A stretch of 64,000 bases of DNA from Myxococcales bacterium (GTDB taxonomy: Bacteria > Myxococcota > Myxococcia > Myxococcales > Myxococcaceae): NCBI GenBank assembly GCA_016191815.1, contig JACPVI010000036.1, positions 1 to 64,000 of the forward strand, given 5' to 3'. The position numbers and the translations under genes are program-made. Shown here piece after piece: positions 2,356 through 9,596 of the stretch. The notes beneath the pieces were generated by a model that was given only the letters and a program-made list of their open reading frames with translations, did no database searches and had not been told where the DNA came from. Position 1 is the stretch's first letter, and the number at the start of each line of letters is the position of its first letter.

Positions 2356-2757
2356 TCACCAGCGGACGAGCTTCAAGCTCCTGACGCATCGGAAGTGACG
2401 CGTGTTCCGCGTGACCACCGTCAGGTCCTCTGCGAGCGCGATCGCGGCGATCATGCAATCGGACTCGCCGATGAGGCGACCCGCGCGCTCCAGCTCCGCG
2501 ATGATCTGGCCGCAGCGTTCGGCTGCACGGTCGTCAAAAGGAAGCGACCGGAAGGCGGTGAAAAACTGGTCGAGCCGCGCAATCACGATTACGGGGTCTC
2601 GGCTGCCCCACGCGCCGCGAAAAAGCTCTTTCTTCACGACGCTGCACAGCGCGACGTCCTCGGCCGGCGTTCCGAGCCAGCGGTCACGGACCTTGACGTC
2701 GGTGCCGTTCAGAAACGCGACGCACGCGTCGGTGTCGATCAGGAATCTCAGCGGCAA
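2356..2757 (-). CDS. vapC: VapC-like PIN-domain toxin ribonuclease
   Basis: This 133-residue PIN protein begins with FLIDTDACVAFLNG, the first catalytic Asp strand. It also has VVKKELFRGAW with the Glu, GESDCMIAAIALAEDLTVV with the central Asp, and TRNTRHF at the end, so the four-acidic-residue metal site of VapC RNases is present. The start is TTG; a GGAGG lies 9 bases upstream of it inside the preceding ORF, which supports translation from that point. It is the distal gene of a two-gene toxin-antitoxin cassette. VapC proteins usually cleave tRNA or rRNA; the target here cannot be read from sequence. Confidence 0.88.
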   Translation of the reverse strand: MPLRFLIDTDACVAFLNGTDVKVRDRWLGTPAEDVALCSVVKKELFRGAWGSRDPVIVIARLDQFFTAFRSLPFDDRAAERCGQIIAELERAGRLIGESDCMIAAIALAEDLTVVTRNTRHFRCVRSLKLVRW

Positions 2758-2974
2758 ATCGGGGCGCCTCCGGAACGCGGTCGGGGGGGACCTTCAGCAT
2801 CCCCTTCAGGCTTCCAAACAGCTCGGCGAAGCCTTCCGGCCAACCGCGCTCGTCAAGGCTTGCTGGGCGGCCCAGCGACGCAACATACGCCGACAGGGTC
2901 GTCTTCCTCCGCCTCGCCTCGCGACGGAAGCGCTTCTCGACCGCGTCCGGAAGGTAGATCGTCAGCTGACCCAT
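2684..2974 (-). CDS. vapB: putative VapB/CopG-type antitoxin of the vapC pair
   Basis: From the ATG at 2974 the product is 96 residues and begins MGQLTIYLPDAVEKRF, a ribbon-helix-helix type beta strand, followed by a helix with KTTLSAYVASLG. This is the fold of small DNA-binding antitoxins. A longer GTG start at 3007 is possible. The 3' end overlaps vapC by 74 bases, more than usual, and the overlapped tail is Arg/His rich and may be only the other frame of vapC. The AT-rich DNA just upstream would be the autoregulated promoter. The antitoxin role is inferred from position and fold. Confidence 0.65.
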   Translation of the reverse strand: MGQLTIYLPDAVEKRFRREARRRKTTLSAYVASLGRPASLDERGWPEGFAELFGSLKGMLKVPPDRVPEAPRFAAEIPDRHRRVRRVSERHRRQGP

Positions 2975-2994
2975 ATGATATGTCTTATACGATA
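2974..2994 (-). promoter_or_regulatory. AT-rich imperfect palindrome at the vapB start, candidate operator and -10 region
   Basis: The plus strand reads TATGATATGTCTTATACGAT then A. The ends mirror each other: TAT pairs with ATA at the outside and TAT with ATA again inside, 6 of 10 base pairs around a central C. The minus strand contains TATAAG ending about 9 bases before the ATG, which would give a leaderless or very short leader transcript. Only 43 bases separate this start from the miaA stop, so the toxin-antitoxin promoter should lie here. The low GC stands out against its surroundings. Confidence 0.4.
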
Positions 2995-3017
2995 CTGCAT
3001 CCTTCACCGCCAGCGGT

Positions 3018-3902
3018 TTATCCTTCCAACACCTCCCGGTAGGGCGGCCGGACGAACTGGGCGCCCTTCTCCTTGCGAAACCAGGTGAGCTGGCGCTTGG
3101 CGTACCGCCGCGTCTCCTGCGCCGCCTGCCGAATCGCCTCCTCGCGGCCGAGCCTGCTCTCCACCAGCGCCAGCGCCTGCGCGTAGCCGACGCTCCTCAT
3201 CGGCGCCGCCTCCCGAAAGCCCATCGACACCAGCCGCCGCACCTCTTCCTCGATGCCCGTCTCGAACAGCGCCCGCGTCCGCCGATCGATCGCCGCGTAC
3301 AGCTCCTCCCGGGGAGGCGAGAGCACCCATAGCCGAAAGGGATAGCGTTCCTCGGCGAAGGCGTGCTTCGCCCGGTGCGCCGACGCCGGCACTCGGGTCA
3401 GCTCGTAGATCTCCAACGCCCGCACCGTCCGGGTTACGTCCGCCGGGTCGATCGCCGCCGCGCTCTCCGGGTCGACCGCGCGCAGACGGTCGTGGAGGGC
3501 CTTCTTGCCGAGCCTCTGCGCTTCTTCCTCGAGGCGAGCCCTGAGCGCTGGCTCGCCAGGTGGCGCGGGGACGACTCCGTGCAAGAGCACCCGGAGGTAC
3601 AGCCCCGTTCCGCCCACCACCACCACCTCCTTGCCGCGGGCGCGGATGTCCGCGACGGCCTGGTCAGCCAGCTTCTGGAACCGCGCTGCGGAGAACCCCT
3701 CCCAAGGCTCCACCACCGACACCAGGTGGTGCCGGACCCGCGCCAGCTGCTGCGCCGAGGGCTTCGCGGTGCCGATGTCGAAATGGCGGTAGACCTGCTG
3801 GGAGTCCGCGCTGACGATCTCCGCCCTGATGCGCTCCGCCAGCTCGATCGCGAGCGCCGTCTTGCCCGAGGCCGTCGGGCCGGCGATCACCTCGAGCTTC
3901 AC
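3018..3902 (-). CDS. miaA: tRNA dimethylallyltransferase MiaA
   Basis: MiaA transfers a dimethylallyl group to N6 of A37 in tRNAs that read UNN codons. The 294-residue length matches the family. The N-terminal P-loop is AGPTASGKTALA, followed by SADSQQVYRHFDIGTAKP, VVVGGTGLYLRVLLHG and RRYAKRQLTWFRKEKG near the end, all characteristic of MiaA. I chose the GTG at 3902 because it puts LEVIAGPTASGK at the N-terminus and overlaps the upstream HprK-like stop as GTGA. A longer open frame to 4145 only reads the upstream gene in another frame. This housekeeping gene appears attached to the end of the PqqD/HprK-like operon. Confidence 0.95.
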   Translation of the reverse strand: MKLEVIAGPTASGKTALAIELAERIRAEIVSADSQQVYRHFDIGTAKPSAQQLARVRHHLVSVVEPWEGFSAARFQKLADQAVADIRARGKEVVVVGGTGLYLRVLLHGVVPAPPGEPALRARLEEEAQRLGKKALHDRLRAVDPESAAAIDPADVTRTVRALEIYELTRVPASAHRAKHAFAEERYPFRLWVLSPPREELYAAIDRRTRALFETGIEEEVRRLVSMGFREAAPMRSVGYAQALALVESRLGREEAIRQAAQETRRYAKRQLTWFRKEKGAQFVRPPYREVLEG

Positions 3903-4696
3903 CGCGGCTCCAGCGCCGAGCCGATCACCTCCGCCACGGAGGTTTCCTTGGCAAAGTGGAGCCGGACCGAGGGCACCCGGTTGAGCAGGTCGGACGCGGC
4001 GCGGAAGAGCCTCGCGCGCCCGGAGGCGGTGGGATCGCCGATCAGCGTATTCGCCGACAGGTCGCGGAACAGGTCGGTAGGGCTCACCGCCTCGAGCCGG
4101 TGCCGATCCGACCATGCCAGGAGTCCGACCGACTGGAGCCGGCACCGCCGCGGAAGGCCCAGGTACCAGGGAGTGCCTTCGAGTAAGTACTCCTCTGCCT
4201 CAGGCCTGACCGCGACCAATTCGTCGGAGAGCACGGTCAGACCAGCCGAAGCGCAGAGCCTCCCCAGCGTACTCTTTCCTGCCCCTGAGGGTCCGAGGAA
4301 CAGAGCCGCCCGCTCTCTCTTGGCGATACCCACCCCATGCACCAGCAGCCCGCCATCAGCGGACAGCTCCCGAGCCAGGAGCACCTTCAGCACCGCCTCG
4401 ATCGGGAAGCGCTCCGCGCACTGCTTGACGCTCGCGCGCCTGTGGGCGGTGTGGACCTGCGCCGAGTAGCAATCGCCCCGGAGCACCACTCCCTCGGGCG
4501 ATGGCTCTATCTCTGGAAGGGTCCGGGGACCAGCCGGCGGCTCGCCAGCCACCACGCTCGCCTCGATCACCCAATCCGCGGAGGAGCCGGTGGCGAAGGC
4601 CGCGAAGTCTTTCCGGAGGCCGGCGATGACCGGCTCCGGGGCCTGAACCTCGACCGACAGGCCTGCGATGCGAAAGCGCGCCGCGGACAAGCCCAT
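3899..4696 (-). CDS. HprK-related kinase (HprK/PEPCK-like P-loop protein) of a PqqD-linked peptide system
   Basis: In this 265-residue protein a Walker A loop, GPSGAGKS, lies at residues 135-142, preceded by GGLLVHGVGI. That is the arrangement of the C-terminal kinase half of HPr kinase/phosphorylase and of the HprK-like kinases found with PqqD-like proteins and in some lasso-peptide clusters. LTVLSDELVAVRP follows as the Asp-bearing strand, as in HprK. The N-terminal 110 residues are not the HprK N-domain and look specific to this subgroup. The gene starts on the base next to the stop of a 63-residue peptide gene and overlaps miaA downstream. By family knowledge it may phosphorylate a peptide or small protein; the substrate is not proven. 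Confidence 0.78.
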   Translation of the reverse strand: MGLSAARFRIAGLSVEVQAPEPVIAGLRKDFAAFATGSSADWVIEASVVAGEPPAGPRTLPEIEPSPEGVVLRGDCYSAQVHTAHRRASVKQCAERFPIEAVLKVLLARELSADGGLLVHGVGIAKRERAALFLGPSGAGKSTLGRLCASAGLTVLSDELVAVRPEAEEYLLEGTPWYLGLPRRCRLQSVGLLAWSDRHRLEAVSPTDLFRDLSANTLIGDPTASGRARLFRAASDLLNRVPSVRLHFAKETSVAEVIGSALEPR

Positions 4697-4888
4697 CTAG
4701 TCCGTGCACCAGTCGCTCCCCGGGGGGTCGCAGTCTGGTGGGGGGTCGATGTGGCCGCTGACGTGGGACGCAAGCCCCACAAACTCCTGCTCCCAAACAA
4801 TCGCAGGCGGGGAGTACCGGGCAGTGGCGCCAAGCCGTTCAGTCGGCTCGGGCTCCAGCTCACTGTCGGCTGTCTCGTGCGGCGCCAC
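4697..4888 (-). CDS. 63-residue peptide, candidate RiPP-like precursor with YxxPxI recognition motif
   Basis: The GTG start directly follows an in-frame TAG, and AGGA sits 4 bases upstream, so no other start is possible. The stop abuts the kinase start. The first half is acidic and Glu/Pro rich. The middle contains RYSPPAIVWEQEF, in which YSPPAI fits the Y-x-x-P-x-L/I pattern that PqqD-like recognition elements bind in lasso-peptide leaders. The C-terminus is Pro/Asp rich with two Cys (DPPPDCDPP, then SDWCTD at the end). There is no signal peptide. Its position between a large secreted protein and an HprK-like kinase, in an operon headed by a PqqD-like gene, suggests a substrate or precursor. 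I see no cyclase, radical-SAM or peptidase gene nearby. Confidence 0.6.
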   Translation of the reverse strand: MAPHETADSELEPEPTERLGATARYSPPAIVWEQEFVGLASHVSGHIDPPPDCDPPGSDWCTD

Positions 4889-4959
4889 TTCGTCCTACGC
4901 CCTCCGGCCCTCAAGTCTCACGGGAATGAACGCCCACCACAAGGAAACGCACCACGACC

Positions 4960-7900
4960 CTAGAAGGGGACTGCCACCGCGCACAGTCGCCCGTCTTCGG
5001 AGTTGACGTGTAGACGTTTCGGAGAAGTGCCGGCCTCGATCGCAGGTGGCCCCAACGCGAATCCCGAGATCAGGGTGAGCGGGTTCTCGTCCGCCCCGGT
5101 GTAGGTGCTGAGCTGGTGGATCACGCCGTCGCGATCGCCCACGTAGATCTTCTGAGAGGTGTAATCGATCCGGATGCCCGCTGGAGAGGTCATCGCCGGC
5201 AGCGAGGCCCAGGCCCAGAACGGGGTGACCGCCTTGGTGGTCGGGTCCACCGAGTAGCGCTGCACCACCCCGCTGGACTGCGAGGCGATGAAACCGTTGG
5301 CGATCGGAGCGACGTAGGTCGTGGTCGCGTCCGGAGTCACTCCGTCGGCTTTGAGGAGCTGGTAGCTCCACACCTGCGCCAGCGTGCTCGGATCGTACGC
5401 GTAGATGAGGCCAGAGTTGGTCGTCACGATGACCACCTGGTTGGCCATGTTGACCGAATGATCGATGTCGCCGAGGTTGAAAGAGGTGACCAACCCCCCG
5501 TTCAAGGTATTGACCACCCACAGCGACGGCTGGGTGCCTCCGTTGGAGCGGCTCGCCACCCACAGGCGGTTGTTCTGGTAGTCCACCAGCATGCCGCCGC
5601 TGATCATGTCCAGGTTGCCGGGGGCGAAGGTCCACGCCTGCGTCCCGTCGTTGCTGTAGCGCGCCCGCACCTCGTTCTGCGTCCGGTTGGCGGTCCGCCG
5701 CGTCGCGAAGAGGACCAGGTCTTTCCCGGGGAAGGCCGCCTGGAAGGCCGCGTTGCCGTATTGGTATAGCTGGACCATCGGCGGCGCCTGGATTCCGCCG
5801 TCGAGGACGAAGGGGCCCGCCCTCCACGCCACGGCTCCCGAGGTGGCGCTGATCACGTAGCCGTTCGCGCTCTGGTCCCCGACCAGGATCCACTTCCCGG
5901 ATCTCCCGGCGAGCGGAACCACCGGCGAGCGGCTCTGCACCGCGCCGGTGACCCGAACCGGCCTCCAGCGCTCCGAGCCGTCCAGCGTGGGATCGGTGGA
6001 GGTGAGGTTGGAAGTCACCGCCTTCAAGTTGCCCGCGCTGTAGACGCCGACGCCGGTCTCGGTCACCGGCTGCACGCTGCTCGAGAAGCCGGTGTTGTAG
6101 CACCACAGCGGGGTGCGGGCGGCGCGGCTGGTCGGCTCCGAGAAGATGCCCTGCGTGCTCGGCACGTTCCCGGAGGAGTAGATCCAGAACTCGTCGTGGT
6201 TGTAGACCTTGTAGTAGTAGCGCTGGCCGTCGGTGAGGCCAGTGTCGGAGAAGCTGGAGCTGAAGCTCAAAGTGTCCACGTAGGCCACCGAGGCGTTGCC
6301 GATCACGTCCCCCACGGTGTAGCGGGTGCCGGAGGCCGGCGGGGTCGACGGCGCCCCGGTCGTGGAGCGGAGCACCAAGACGCCGTCGTGATCGCCGGGG
6401 TTGGTCCAGATCAGCCGGTTGCGGCCCGGTCCCGAAAGCGCGATCAGGTCGATGATGTCCGGCACGGTCCGGGAGATGAAAACGGTCACCTGGTCCTCCA
6501 CCCGCACGGTGGTGCCGTCGGCAAGCGTGAGGATGGCGCGGTGGGTGTAGGTGGTGGTCTGCGTCACCGTGCCGATGGTGTACTGCATGGTGAAGGTCTT
6601 GCTCTGGCCGGGGGCTAGCTCGGCGGCGGCGTTGGGCGCGGTGAAGGTGAAGGTCTTGGGGCTCTGCTTGCTCGCGTCCACGGTCCACCCGGAGGTGTCC
6701 ACGCTGTTGGTGGCGCTGCCGAACGGAGCGCCGGGGTCGATGATTCCCAGTTCCTTGATGTTCTGCCCGCCGCCGTTGAAGACGGTGTACTGGATGGTCT
6801 TCACCCCCGCGCCGGAAATCACCGAGGAGGGGTTGGCGCGAATGGTGTGCGTCACCACGTATCCCAGCGCGGAGGCCACCGGGACGCTGGCGACCGGCAT
6901 TCCCTCCTTCACCGCGGTCGCCTGTCCGGAGAACTGGTAGGTCTGGCCGGGAGTCCCGTTGATCCGGTACACCCAGTAGAAGCGGGCCGCGCTCCCCGCC
7001 GAGAGGGTCGCCACGTTCGCCGGCTCGGGCCCCGACACCAGCGTGCGCGTCGCGGTGCCGCTGATGCTCAGCGGGTTCGGCACCACGTTGGTCAGCGGCG
7101 AGGTGCCGTTGTTGCTCACCATCAGCGACACGGTGACCTGCGCGCCGTCGGTGACTCCGGGCGGGGTGAGGCTCATCGCTCCGGTGAAATCCCCTACGCT
7201 CACCGTCTGGCTCTGGGCGAGGTTGGAGGTGACCGCGTTGGCGCCGGTGGTGAACGCCGAGGTGCTGAAGGTGGAGACGCCGTCAGAGTTGGCCACGTAC
7301 CTCCAGCTGATCTGCGCGGAGGCGTTCTGAGCCAGGCTGGCAATGCTCGCAGGGGTGGGCCCGGCGGTTAGTCCGAAGGTGGCCCCTCCCTGCGCCGCCG
7401 GCGGGCTGGTCGAAGGCTGGTAGGGAGTGATGCTGGTCTTGGTCTGAGAGGCGCGGTTGGTGACGGTCATGGTGACCGTCACGCTGCCGCCCTGCGAGAG
7501 CACGCGCGGGGAGACGTTGAGCTGGGCGGAGAGCCCGACCCGCGTCCAGCTCGAGGCGCCGGTCCAGTGCGGGAACGTGACGCTGGGGTTGGCGCACCCG
7601 TCGTAGGCCTCGGTCTTGCCCGTGCCGGAATCGTCCAGGTCCTCGCCAGCGACGTCCTTGGTCGCCGGGGTGGCCACCACCCGGACGCCGAAGAGGTCGG
7701 ACTGGCCCGGCGACAGGCCCACCGCGGGGCAGCCGCCGGCGGGGACGAAGGTGATCGACCGGTTCAGCATGTCCATGGCCTGGACGACCCAACCCGGCGG
7801 CGCCACTCCTCCTTCGATGTCGTAGTCGTTGGCGCTGCCACCCGCGAAGGGGAACTTGAGGGTGATCTTGTTGAGGCTGTTGGTGCTCGAGGCCCCGTTC

Positions 7901-8034
7901 GCGATGGTGAAGGTCAGGGTGGAGATCTCTCCCATCACCGCTACGCCCGACGACCGGTTGATGGTCCAGCTGTTGGCTGCGAGCGCCACGGCCGGAAGAA
8001 GGAGCGCCGCGAACACGATGTTTGCTTTCTTCAT
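4960..8034 (-). CDS. large secreted protein with Ig-like/fibronectin-like repeats and a C-terminal PQQ-type beta-propeller
   Basis: This protein has 1024 residues. Residues 1-20 (MKKANIVFAALLLPAVALAA) form a clear signal peptide. There follow several 110-140-residue beta-rich repeats with conserved turns such as VTVTMTVTNR, VTVSLMVSNNG and IQYTVFNGGG, resembling CARDB/DUF11 adhesion modules. A fibronectin-III-like part with RLIWTNPGDHDG and YYYKVYNHDEFW comes near residue 560-640. The last 350 residues have propeller-like strands such as GLIYAYDPSTLAQVWSYQ and QKIYVGDRDGVIHQLSTYTG, as in PQQ-repeat (BamB-like) propellers. GGGAGG lies 4 bases before the ATG, so strong translation is expected. 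It is 12 bases behind the lipoprotein gene. The predicted location is extracytoplasmic; the role is unknown. Confidence 0.8.
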   Translation of the reverse strand: MKKANIVFAALLLPAVALAANSWTINRSSGVAVMGEISTLTFTIANGASSTNSLNKITLKFPFAGGSANDYDIEGGVAPPGWVVQAMDMLNRSITFVPAGGCPAVGLSPGQSDLFGVRVVATPATKDVAGEDLDDSGTGKTEAYDGCANPSVTFPHWTGASSWTRVGLSAQLNVSPRVLSQGGSVTVTMTVTNRASQTKTSITPYQPSTSPPAAQGGATFGLTAGPTPASIASLAQNASAQISWRYVANSDGVSTFSTSAFTTGANAVTSNLAQSQTVSVGDFTGAMSLTPPGVTDGAQVTVSLMVSNNGTSPLTNVVPNPLSISGTATRTLVSGPEPANVATLSAGSAARFYWVYRINGTPGQTYQFSGQATAVKEGMPVASVPVASALGYVVTHTIRANPSSVISGAGVKTIQYTVFNGGGQNIKELGIIDPGAPFGSATNSVDTSGWTVDASKQSPKTFTFTAPNAAAELAPGQSKTFTMQYTIGTVTQTTTYTHRAILTLADGTTVRVEDQVTVFISRTVPDIIDLIALSGPGRNRLIWTNPGDHDGVLVLRSTTGAPSTPPASGTRYTVGDVIGNASVAYVDTLSFSSSFSDTGLTDGQRYYYKVYNHDEFWIYSSGNVPSTQGIFSEPTSRAARTPLWCYNTGFSSSVQPVTETGVGVYSAGNLKAVTSNLTSTDPTLDGSERWRPVRVTGAVQSRSPVVPLAGRSGKWILVGDQSANGYVISATSGAVAWRAGPFVLDGGIQAPPMVQLYQYGNAAFQAAFPGKDLVLFATRRTANRTQNEVRARYSNDGTQAWTFAPGNLDMISGGMLVDYQNNRLWVASRSNGGTQPSLWVVNTLNGGLVTSFNLGDIDHSVNMANQVVIVTTNSGLIYAYDPSTLAQVWSYQLLKADGVTPDATTTYVAPIANGFIASQSSGVVQRYSVDPTTKAVTPFWAWASLPAMTSPAGIRIDYTSQKIYVGDRDGVIHQLSTYTGADENPLTLISGFALGPPAIEAGTSPKRLHVNSEDGRLCAVAVPF

Positions 8035-8046
8035 CGCGACCTCCCT

Positions 8047-8556
8047 TCACTGCGCCAAGTCGAAGGCCTGGGTGCCCACCGCCGTTTCGTCCACCAGGAA
8101 CAGCGCCTCCCACTGCCCCCACAGGCGCGCGGTGTCGATCATCGTCCCGGCGACCATCAGCTCAAAGTCCACTCGTTGCGCCTCGAATGGCGTCCCGGTC
8201 AGGATCGCCTCCCGGCGCTCGTAGGGCATCCCGCGGGGGGTGAGAAGCTCCACCACCAGCTTCTGCCCTGTGCGCGCGCCAAGCACGTTCGCGCAGACCT
8301 TCACCGACCGGACCGAGGACACGCTGGTGGCGCCGGCAGGATCGAGCTCCGCGCAGGTGGTGGCCGAAAGCGGAGGAGGCTTCAAGGGCTCCACCATCTC
8401 CAGCTCGGGCACTGGGCCCGGCTCGGCTGTGCTCACCTCCGGCGGCGCGGGCGCGAGCTCCTCCGGGGGAGACTGCTCCTCCGGAGGCGGCTGCGTCGGC
8501 TTCTGGGTGCAGGACAGCCCGAGCGCGGCGCTCAGAAGCAACGGGATCAGCCTCAT
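8047..8556 (-). CDS. small lipoprotein with Pro/Glu linker, paralogous at its C-terminus to the lipoprotein at 9075
   Basis: A 169-residue product starts at the ATG overlapping the PqqD-like stop (ATGA). The N-terminus LLLSAALGLSC is a signal peptide with a lipobox-like Cys at residue 16. A Pro/Glu-rich linker follows, then a compact domain ending VAGTMIDTARLWGQWEAL and AFDLAQ. The protein at 9075-9596 ends with VAGTMIQTSGLTGTWTGEV and AFDLY, so the two share this domain. It sits between the PqqD-like gene and the giant secreted gene and is probably attached to the inner or outer membrane. I do not recognise the family. Confidence 0.75.
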   Translation of the reverse strand: MRLIPLLLSAALGLSCTQKPTQPPPEEQSPPEELAPAPPEVSTAEPGPVPELEMVEPLKPPPLSATTCAELDPAGATSVSSVRSVKVCANVLGARTGQKLVVELLTPRGMPYERREAILTGTPFEAQRVDFELMVAGTMIDTARLWGQWEALFLVDETAVGTQAFDLAQ

Positions 8557-8855
8557 CGCGCGCCTCCTTTCGGCCCCGGCCCGGCACCGGCGCCGCCTTC
8601 CCGGTGGACCAGCGCTCGGTCCTCGAGCACCAAGAGAAAGGTGCCCACGTCCGCGAGAGCCGCCTCCACCGGAACTGCGAACTCGCGCGAGATGGAACGG
8701 GCGATCTCTCCCGCCGACCGGCGCCCGTCGAGCAGCTCCCACACCCGCGCCCCCGCCGCGTTCAGTCCCCGCAGCGTGCGGCCGGATTCATCGAGCACCA
8801 CGCACTCGTCGCCGAAGCGGCTCGTTTCCGAGCCTGCCTGACGCCGGAAGACCAT
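8553..8855 (-). CDS. PqqD-family peptide-binding protein (RRE-like winged helix)
   Basis: The product is 100 residues from the ATG at 8855, which has GGAG 3 bases upstream; TTG 8918 and ATG 8909 in the same frame lack a ribosome site. The sequence ECVVLDESGRTLRGLNAAGARVWELLDG, then EIARSISREFAVP and a final helix, matches the PqqD fold. That fold is the RiPP recognition element, which binds leader peptides and presents them to modifying enzymes. It heads a minus-strand operon with a lipoprotein, a large secreted protein, a YxxPxI peptide and an HprK-like kinase. By family knowledge PqqD-like and HprK-like genes recur together; the biochemistry here is inferred. Confidence 0.82.
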   Translation of the reverse strand: MVFRRQAGSETSRFGDECVVLDESGRTLRGLNAAGARVWELLDGRRSAGEIARSISREFAVPVEAALADVGTFLLVLEDRALVHREGGAGAGPGPKGGAR

Positions 8856-9074: not shown

Positions 9075-9596
9075 CTAGTAAAGGTCGAAGGCCGTCCGGG
9101 CGTTGGGCGTGGACGCGGAGTCGATCAGGACCTCGCCCGTCCATGTGCCGGTGAGGCCGGAGGTCTGGATCATGGTGCCGGCGACCGGCATGGAGACCCA
9201 GACTCGCCAGCCGGTGGCGGTCCGCTCGGCCTGCTGCTCGCCGGATCCGGCGGGGACGTCGGTGGCGAAGGCCACGTCGTACCGCTGGTAGGCGGCGCCG
9301 CTCGGGGTGAAGACGAAGACCGTCTCGGTGTGGTGTCCGGAGAGGGAGCCGGTGATCTCGGTGGCGAAGAAGACGTCGTAGGTGCTCATGATCGGGTACG
9401 CCGTCTTCCAGGTCGGCTCGACGCCCGCGACGTGCTCGTCGGTGGTCCTTAGCGCGTAGGTCGGCGCCGAGGTGCTGCCGCTGCGCGACTTGTTGCCCTT
9501 GAGGCCGTCGGGCGAATCGCTTTGCAACTCTGGCCCGCAAGCGGCGAGGGTGAGGGCGGCGGCAGCGGCGACGACGGCGGAAAGCATTCGGTGCAT
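9075..9596 (-). CDS. lipoprotein sharing the C-terminal domain of the 8047 lipoprotein
   Basis: From the ATG at 9596, with GGGAG upstream, the product is 173 residues. MHRMLSAVVAAAAALTLAAC is a lipoprotein signal peptide with an LAAC lipobox. After a Ser/Gly-rich stretch comes a beta-rich domain with DVFFATEITGSLSGHHTETV, VAGTMIQTSGLTGTWTGEV and AFDLY. The ending parallels the lipoprotein at 8047-8556, which suggests duplication within the peptide locus. It lies between a TlpA-like thioredoxin and the PqqD-like operon on the same strand and may be part of the same system. No known function is recognised. Confidence 0.75.
   Translation of the reverse strand: MHRMLSAVVAAAAALTLAACGPELQSDSPDGLKGNKSRSGSTSAPTYALRTTDEHVAGVEPTWKTAYPIMSTYDVFFATEITGSLSGHHTETVFVFTPSGAAYQRYDVAFATDVPAGSGEQQAERTATGWRVWVSMPVAGTMIQTSGLTGTWTGEVLIDSASTPNARTAFDLY

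Follow-up and report, generated by a model that had tools for sequence, protein, structure and literature searches.

Kinases that modify RiPPs are known from lasso clusters. In the bsf cluster of Bradymonas sediminis (BsfA/BsfB1/BsfK), a phosphorylated lasso cluster with a YxxPxL precursor, the kinase BsfK phosphorylates Ser3 of the precursor, 19 residues past the leader tyrosine, and the PqqD-like protein BsfB1 accelerates this reaction (PMC10368454). The cluster is bordered by a gene for an FG-GAP repeat protein (PMC10368454). Leader recognition follows short motifs: YxxP is recognised by the RiPP recognition elements (RREs) of lasso systems and W/Y/LxxP/L/I by those of the PqqD-related group (PMC12710340). 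Paeninodin-type lasso kinases (PMC8498205) are likewise HPr kinase homologues acting on a RiPP precursor, but they modify a C-terminal serine. The SynChlorMet cassette (ScmC, ScmD, ScmE, ScmF) also combines HprK-like and PqqD-like proteins, but together with radical SAM enzymes.

We analyzed a window of 64,000 nucleotides from the genome of a Myxococcales bacterium (contig JACPVI010000036.1, assembly GCA_016191815.1). A minus-strand run with overlaps or short gaps had been predicted here, leading from a PqqD-like gene to a kinase gene, and all five of its genes were located as predicted. The run is tightly packed and coupled to miaA:

8553-8855, minus strand: PqqD-like RiPP recognition element, 100 aa (ATG at 8855, stop at 8553; PF05402, E 1.2e-14)
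8047-8556, minus strand: lipoprotein, 169 aa (ATG at 8556; lipobox LSC; 4-base overlap with the PqqD stop)
4960-8034, minus strand: secreted Ig/propeller protein, 1024 aa (signal peptide by sequence; PF13360)
4697-4888, minus strand: precursor-like peptide, 63 aa (GTG at 4888, TAG at 4697)
3899-4696, minus strand: HprK-like P-loop kinase, 265 aa (ATG at 4696, immediately after the peptide stop)
3018-3902, minus strand: miaA, tRNA dimethylallyltransferase (GTG at 3902; TIGR00174, 266 bits against a cut-off of 149)
9075-9596, minus strand: second lipoprotein, a possible associate (distant homologue of the lipoprotein at 8047-8556, 27% identity in the alignment)

The kinase stop and the miaA start overlap in the sequence GTGA. 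We regard miaA as a translationally coupled neighbour that probably lies outside the system. Further along the window, inspection by eye revealed a VapBC-like pair just downstream of miaA (2356-3007; a PIN-domain-like ORF at 2356-2757 and an antitoxin-like ORF at 2684-3007) and, at 419-2128, a FAD-dehydrogenase-like ORF apparently fused to a response-regulator receiver domain.

No description of the operon was found in the open literature. It appears to be an undescribed, family-wide myxobacterial operon whose PqqD-type RRE and HprK-like kinase are proposed to act on a small peptide without a nearby lasso cyclase or radical SAM enzyme, and gene order links it to secreted Ig/propeller proteins. 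Known relatives exist for every part; the novelty lies in the combination and its spread. We think it rather probable that the operon encodes a RiPP-like phosphopeptide system, in which an RRE-guided kinase modifies a peptide that is cut, exported and acts together with surface proteins. This reading makes definite predictions for the phosphosite and the peptidase.

The proposal depended on a conserved peptide beside the kinase/PqqD pair in related genomes, and such a peptide is present. Searches of 145 genomes of the order with the kinase and with the peptide found 54 that have an orthologous kinase, and in 53 of these the gene immediately upstream is a peptide homologue (51 from the searches and two, G090 and G015, by reading), with presence in every genome of two genera (27/27 and 16/16). 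For 19 homologues, codon analysis gave a pN/pS of 0.33 in the peptide frame, and the other two frames were without such constraint. Adjacency and frame-specific constraint together indicate that the peptide is a real gene and rule out a chance open reading frame. The sole genome without the adjacency, G091, has a solitary type-1 kinase (L067, contig C93, 9728-10537) with no PqqD, peptide or propeller gene nearby, possibly a remnant.

The 63-residue peptide had no match in PDB, NCBIfam or Pfam. It consists of a leader with the motif Y25-x2-P28-x-I30-x5-F36 and a tail with two cysteines, C53 and C61. Its family comprises 27 distinct leader-tail variants, 18 representatives of which were aligned on the leader tyrosine. 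The tyrosine, the proline at +3 and a tryptophan at +7 are invariant, Ile or Val at +5 and Phe or Leu at +11 occur in all 18, and two tail cysteines in 17. Leader and tail have a similar pS of about 0.3, but pN is 0.041 in the leader versus 0.163 in the tail, showing that the leader is the more constrained part. By these values and the alignment, the peptide has the anatomy of a RiPP precursor, which is short and joins a conserved leader to a more variable core.

Among solved structures, the profile of the PqqD-like protein matched the lasso RRE TbiB1 (5v1u) best, with an E value of 2e-11, and also PqqD (3g2b) and TfuB1 (6jx3). Against TIGR03859, the model for PqqD of PQQ biosynthesis, it scored 25.1 bits, below the cut-off of 46. 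The leader motif YxxPx[I/V] is present in 18/18 peptides and resembles the YxxPxL of lasso leaders that are bound by PqqD-type RREs. As in RiPP clusters, a co-encoded RRE of the PqqD type (PF05402, TbiB1 match) is thus paired with a recognition motif in the leader. We propose that the PqqD-type protein docks onto the YxxPxI leader and presents the 63-residue peptide to the kinase.

The AlphaFold2 model of the kinase (pLDDT 95.5) has a PEPCK/HprK fold; PEPCK was its full-length match (Z 15.6, 235 residues), HPr kinases matched its core, and the kinase profile also matched HprK. Alignment identified the catalytic residues H120, G135/G138/G140, K141, S142, D158 and E159. The motif H-x14-G-x2-G-x-G-K-S-x15-D-[D/E] has exactly the spacing of H148-G163-G166-G168-K169-S170-D186-D187 in BsfK (PMC10368454), with the final catalytic Asp of HprK and BsfK replaced by Glu. 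The protein therefore carries the features of the HPr kinase/phosphorylase fold (P-loop, His, GxSGxGKS/T, Asp-Asp/Glu), with Glu as the second acidic residue. Family models returned generic P-loop matches. HprK-related kinases A and B (TIGR04352 and TIGR04355) have the P-loop kinase core in common with it, but their models gave 29 and 26 bits, far below the cut-off of 200. In a kinase tree the type-1 Myxococcaceae kinases formed one clade (100/99) apart from the rest, with the long-branched L127 also inside. Scanning contigs for kinase relatives yielded none with the single kinase as query and four distant loci with an alignment as query.

By analogy with BsfK, the closest precedent with experimental proof, the kinase probably phosphorylates the peptide, and its target would be a Ser or Thr just past the leader. 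Seventeen of the 18 representatives have Ser or Thr at Tyr+18. The window peptide is the exception, with serines at +16 and +19 (+5 and +8 relative to the Phe); among paralogous peptides, Ser or Thr is found at Tyr+19 in 14 of 18. The candidate sites in the window peptide are Ser44, Ser41 and Ser58. Since BsfK acts at Tyr+19, Ser44 is the best prediction, with Ser41 and Ser58 as alternatives. The serine of the PGES/PGS motif between the cysteines was weakened as a candidate by its absence from some members (CEPGAC, CIPGQDPRC). Phosphorylation of a C-terminal serine, as in paeninodin, was rejected, as the last residue of these peptides is Pro, Asp, Leu, Glu or Val and never Ser.

With the bsf cluster, the locus shares an HprK-like peptide kinase with identical catalytic spacing, a separate PqqD-type RRE, a Tyr-Pro leader motif, a conserved Ser near Tyr+19 and a link to propeller-type proteins in the form of the bsf FG-GAP neighbour. 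Unlike bsf, the window peptide has a two-Cys tail, and the lasso cyclase, B2 peptidase and ABC transporter of bsf have no counterpart at the window locus. Neither a B2 peptidase (PF13471) nor an asparagine-synthetase-like cyclase was found among the locus genes, and PF13471 had no match above cut-off in the whole genome. Scores against SynChlorMet ScmC (18 of 125 bits) and ScmD (25.5 of 100 bits) were, like all such matches, far below the NCBIfam cut-offs. By the tests run, the operon belongs to none of the lasso, SynChlorMet and PQQ systems. Its kinase, RRE and precursor might still be what was left of a phosphorylated lasso cluster after loss of the cyclase, given that both the leader motif and the PqqD most resemble those of lasso systems and that the bsf cluster, with its kinase and YxxPxL precursor, adjoins an FG-GAP repeat protein (PMC10368454). 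We consider such decay highly improbable: purifying selection acts on an intact operon, whose synteny holds throughout the family, the genome is without a lasso-type B2 peptidase above cut-off, and in several related clusters it is a radical SAM gene, not lasso enzymes, that accompanies the kinase.

Sixteen Myxococcaceae-type loci (L062-L066, L068-L078) retain the gene order PqqD, lipoprotein, propeller, peptide, kinase, usually between psd-hisS and miaA; to judge from genome sizes and gene content, their hosts probably belong to the Myxococcaceae. In 15 of the 16, a gene for an S24/S26-type peptidase overlaps or abuts the PqqD start (motif GDSMWPSL..GD ... HRV or HRL; Pfam S24, 44 bits). The sixteenth locus, L076, and the window are without this gene and have the second lipoprotein instead; the homologue in L076, 39% identical, also lies upstream of PqqD. 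An orthologue of the relatives' peptidase was not found in the window's genome by a search of limited power, and the window locus has no peptidase, transporter or immunity genes. The relatives' Ser-His enzyme is likely the leader peptidase. The original prediction had stated that neither a radical SAM enzyme nor a peptidase is near; this holds for the window and fails for its relatives, in which both kinds of gene occur.

The peptidase also bears on the role of the peptide. If the kinase targeted another protein, the peptide could be a regulator that engages the PqqD/kinase pair in the manner of an inhibitor or sensor tail, and not a product. An operon that is core to two genera would be unusual for a specialised product and would suit such a role, as would the short tail and the one-residue shift of the Ser/Thr site in the window. 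We regard it as quite unlikely, because a leader far more constrained than the tail is what one would expect in a precursor, the relatives have a peptidase gene coupled to PqqD, and BsfK/BsfB1 provide a precedent for modification.

The RiPP-like reading itself is well supported at the sequence level by the conserved peptide beside the kinase, the RRE-type leader motif, the TbiB1-like PqqD and the HprK catalytic residues. To this extent the original proposal stands; for its putative phosphopeptide, BsfK/BsfB1 (PMC10368454) are a close published precedent. After phosphorylation the tail, held by its two cysteines in a putative disulphide, would be cut off the leader and exported, and may act at the cell surface together with the lipoprotein and the secreted Ig/propeller protein of the same operon.

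Both of these partners have recognisable architectures. In the lipoprotein at 8047-8556 the lipobox Cys16 is invariant in the alignment. It belongs to no Pfam or NCBIfam family; its AlphaFold2 model (pLDDT 83, mostly >90 in the C-terminal half) predicts a C-terminal Ig-like beta-sandwich, and fold comparison gave weak Ig-like matches. The 1024-residue protein consists of N-terminal Ig-like repeats and a C-terminal beta-propeller, with PF13360 (PQQ_2) at 788-924 preceded by weak NEW3, CARDB and DUF7507 matches. Syntenic propeller homologues with 34-42% identity occur in the 16 complete operon loci and in the contig-end locus L081; the homologue in L080 is more distant (26%).

The window's genome contains a second, paralogous operon (L084, contig C72, 6213-14375 within the segment 12000-31000 labelled G000:C72), which encodes a PqqD, an Ig/FG-GAP protein, a peptide, an HprK-like kinase and an S24-like/acetyltransferase-like protein. 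Its large protein of ~1960 residues is secreted, with an Ig/FG-GAP propeller and a lipoprotein-type signal. The peptide is of the YxxP type and contains ...RPYRAPRVRSQKLLVPNLFDHSPTCGGG..., and the operon ends with the S24-like protein fused to an acetyltransferase-like part. Relatives of this operon are widespread. With two parallel operons each carrying a secreted Ig/propeller protein, the predicted link to a surface protein, also backed by gene order, is better supported than by one locus. It is conceivable, though we propose it only tentatively, that the kinase is the sole modifying enzyme, and that on the myxobacterial surface a phosphorylated two-Cys peptide is permanently partnered with a secreted Ig/propeller protein. 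Two such systems would exist in parallel, with a PQQ-like and an FG-GAP propeller respectively and one of the two core to whole genera, and they would serve surface function or signalling and not antibiosis.

Alternatively, the main modification could come from an enzyme, radical SAM or other, whose gene lies at a different place in the genome; it would cross-link the two-Cys tail and leave the kinase an accessory part. Related operons of other lineages have a radical SAM enzyme next to the kinase, in most cases one with a SPASM domain; its gene follows the kinase in L080, L109, L095, L117, L125 and L126 and precedes the peptide in L105, L112 and L137. Two of these, L080 and L109, are type-1 systems whose peptide is related. 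In operons with a radical SAM enzyme, phosphorylation may not be the main modification. The window's genome also holds several radical SAM/SPASM-like genes. Against this, neither the window nor any of the 16 Myxococcaceae type-1 operon loci showed a radical SAM gene, and the only two PqqD genes found in the genome lie one in each of the two paralogous operons. No clear candidate for a dedicated partner in trans emerged from this genome: the best are 33-34% identical over about 146 residues and most resemble other peptide-maturase families. We hold main modification by such an enzyme to be unlikely and retain the RRE-guided kinase as the preferred reading. A further peptide family, with SICKGG or GICKGG...GGG(S) tails, was observed beside HprK-like kinases in L112, L119 and L137, which come from family f11 of the phylum; L112 and L137 also have PqqD and radical SAM genes.
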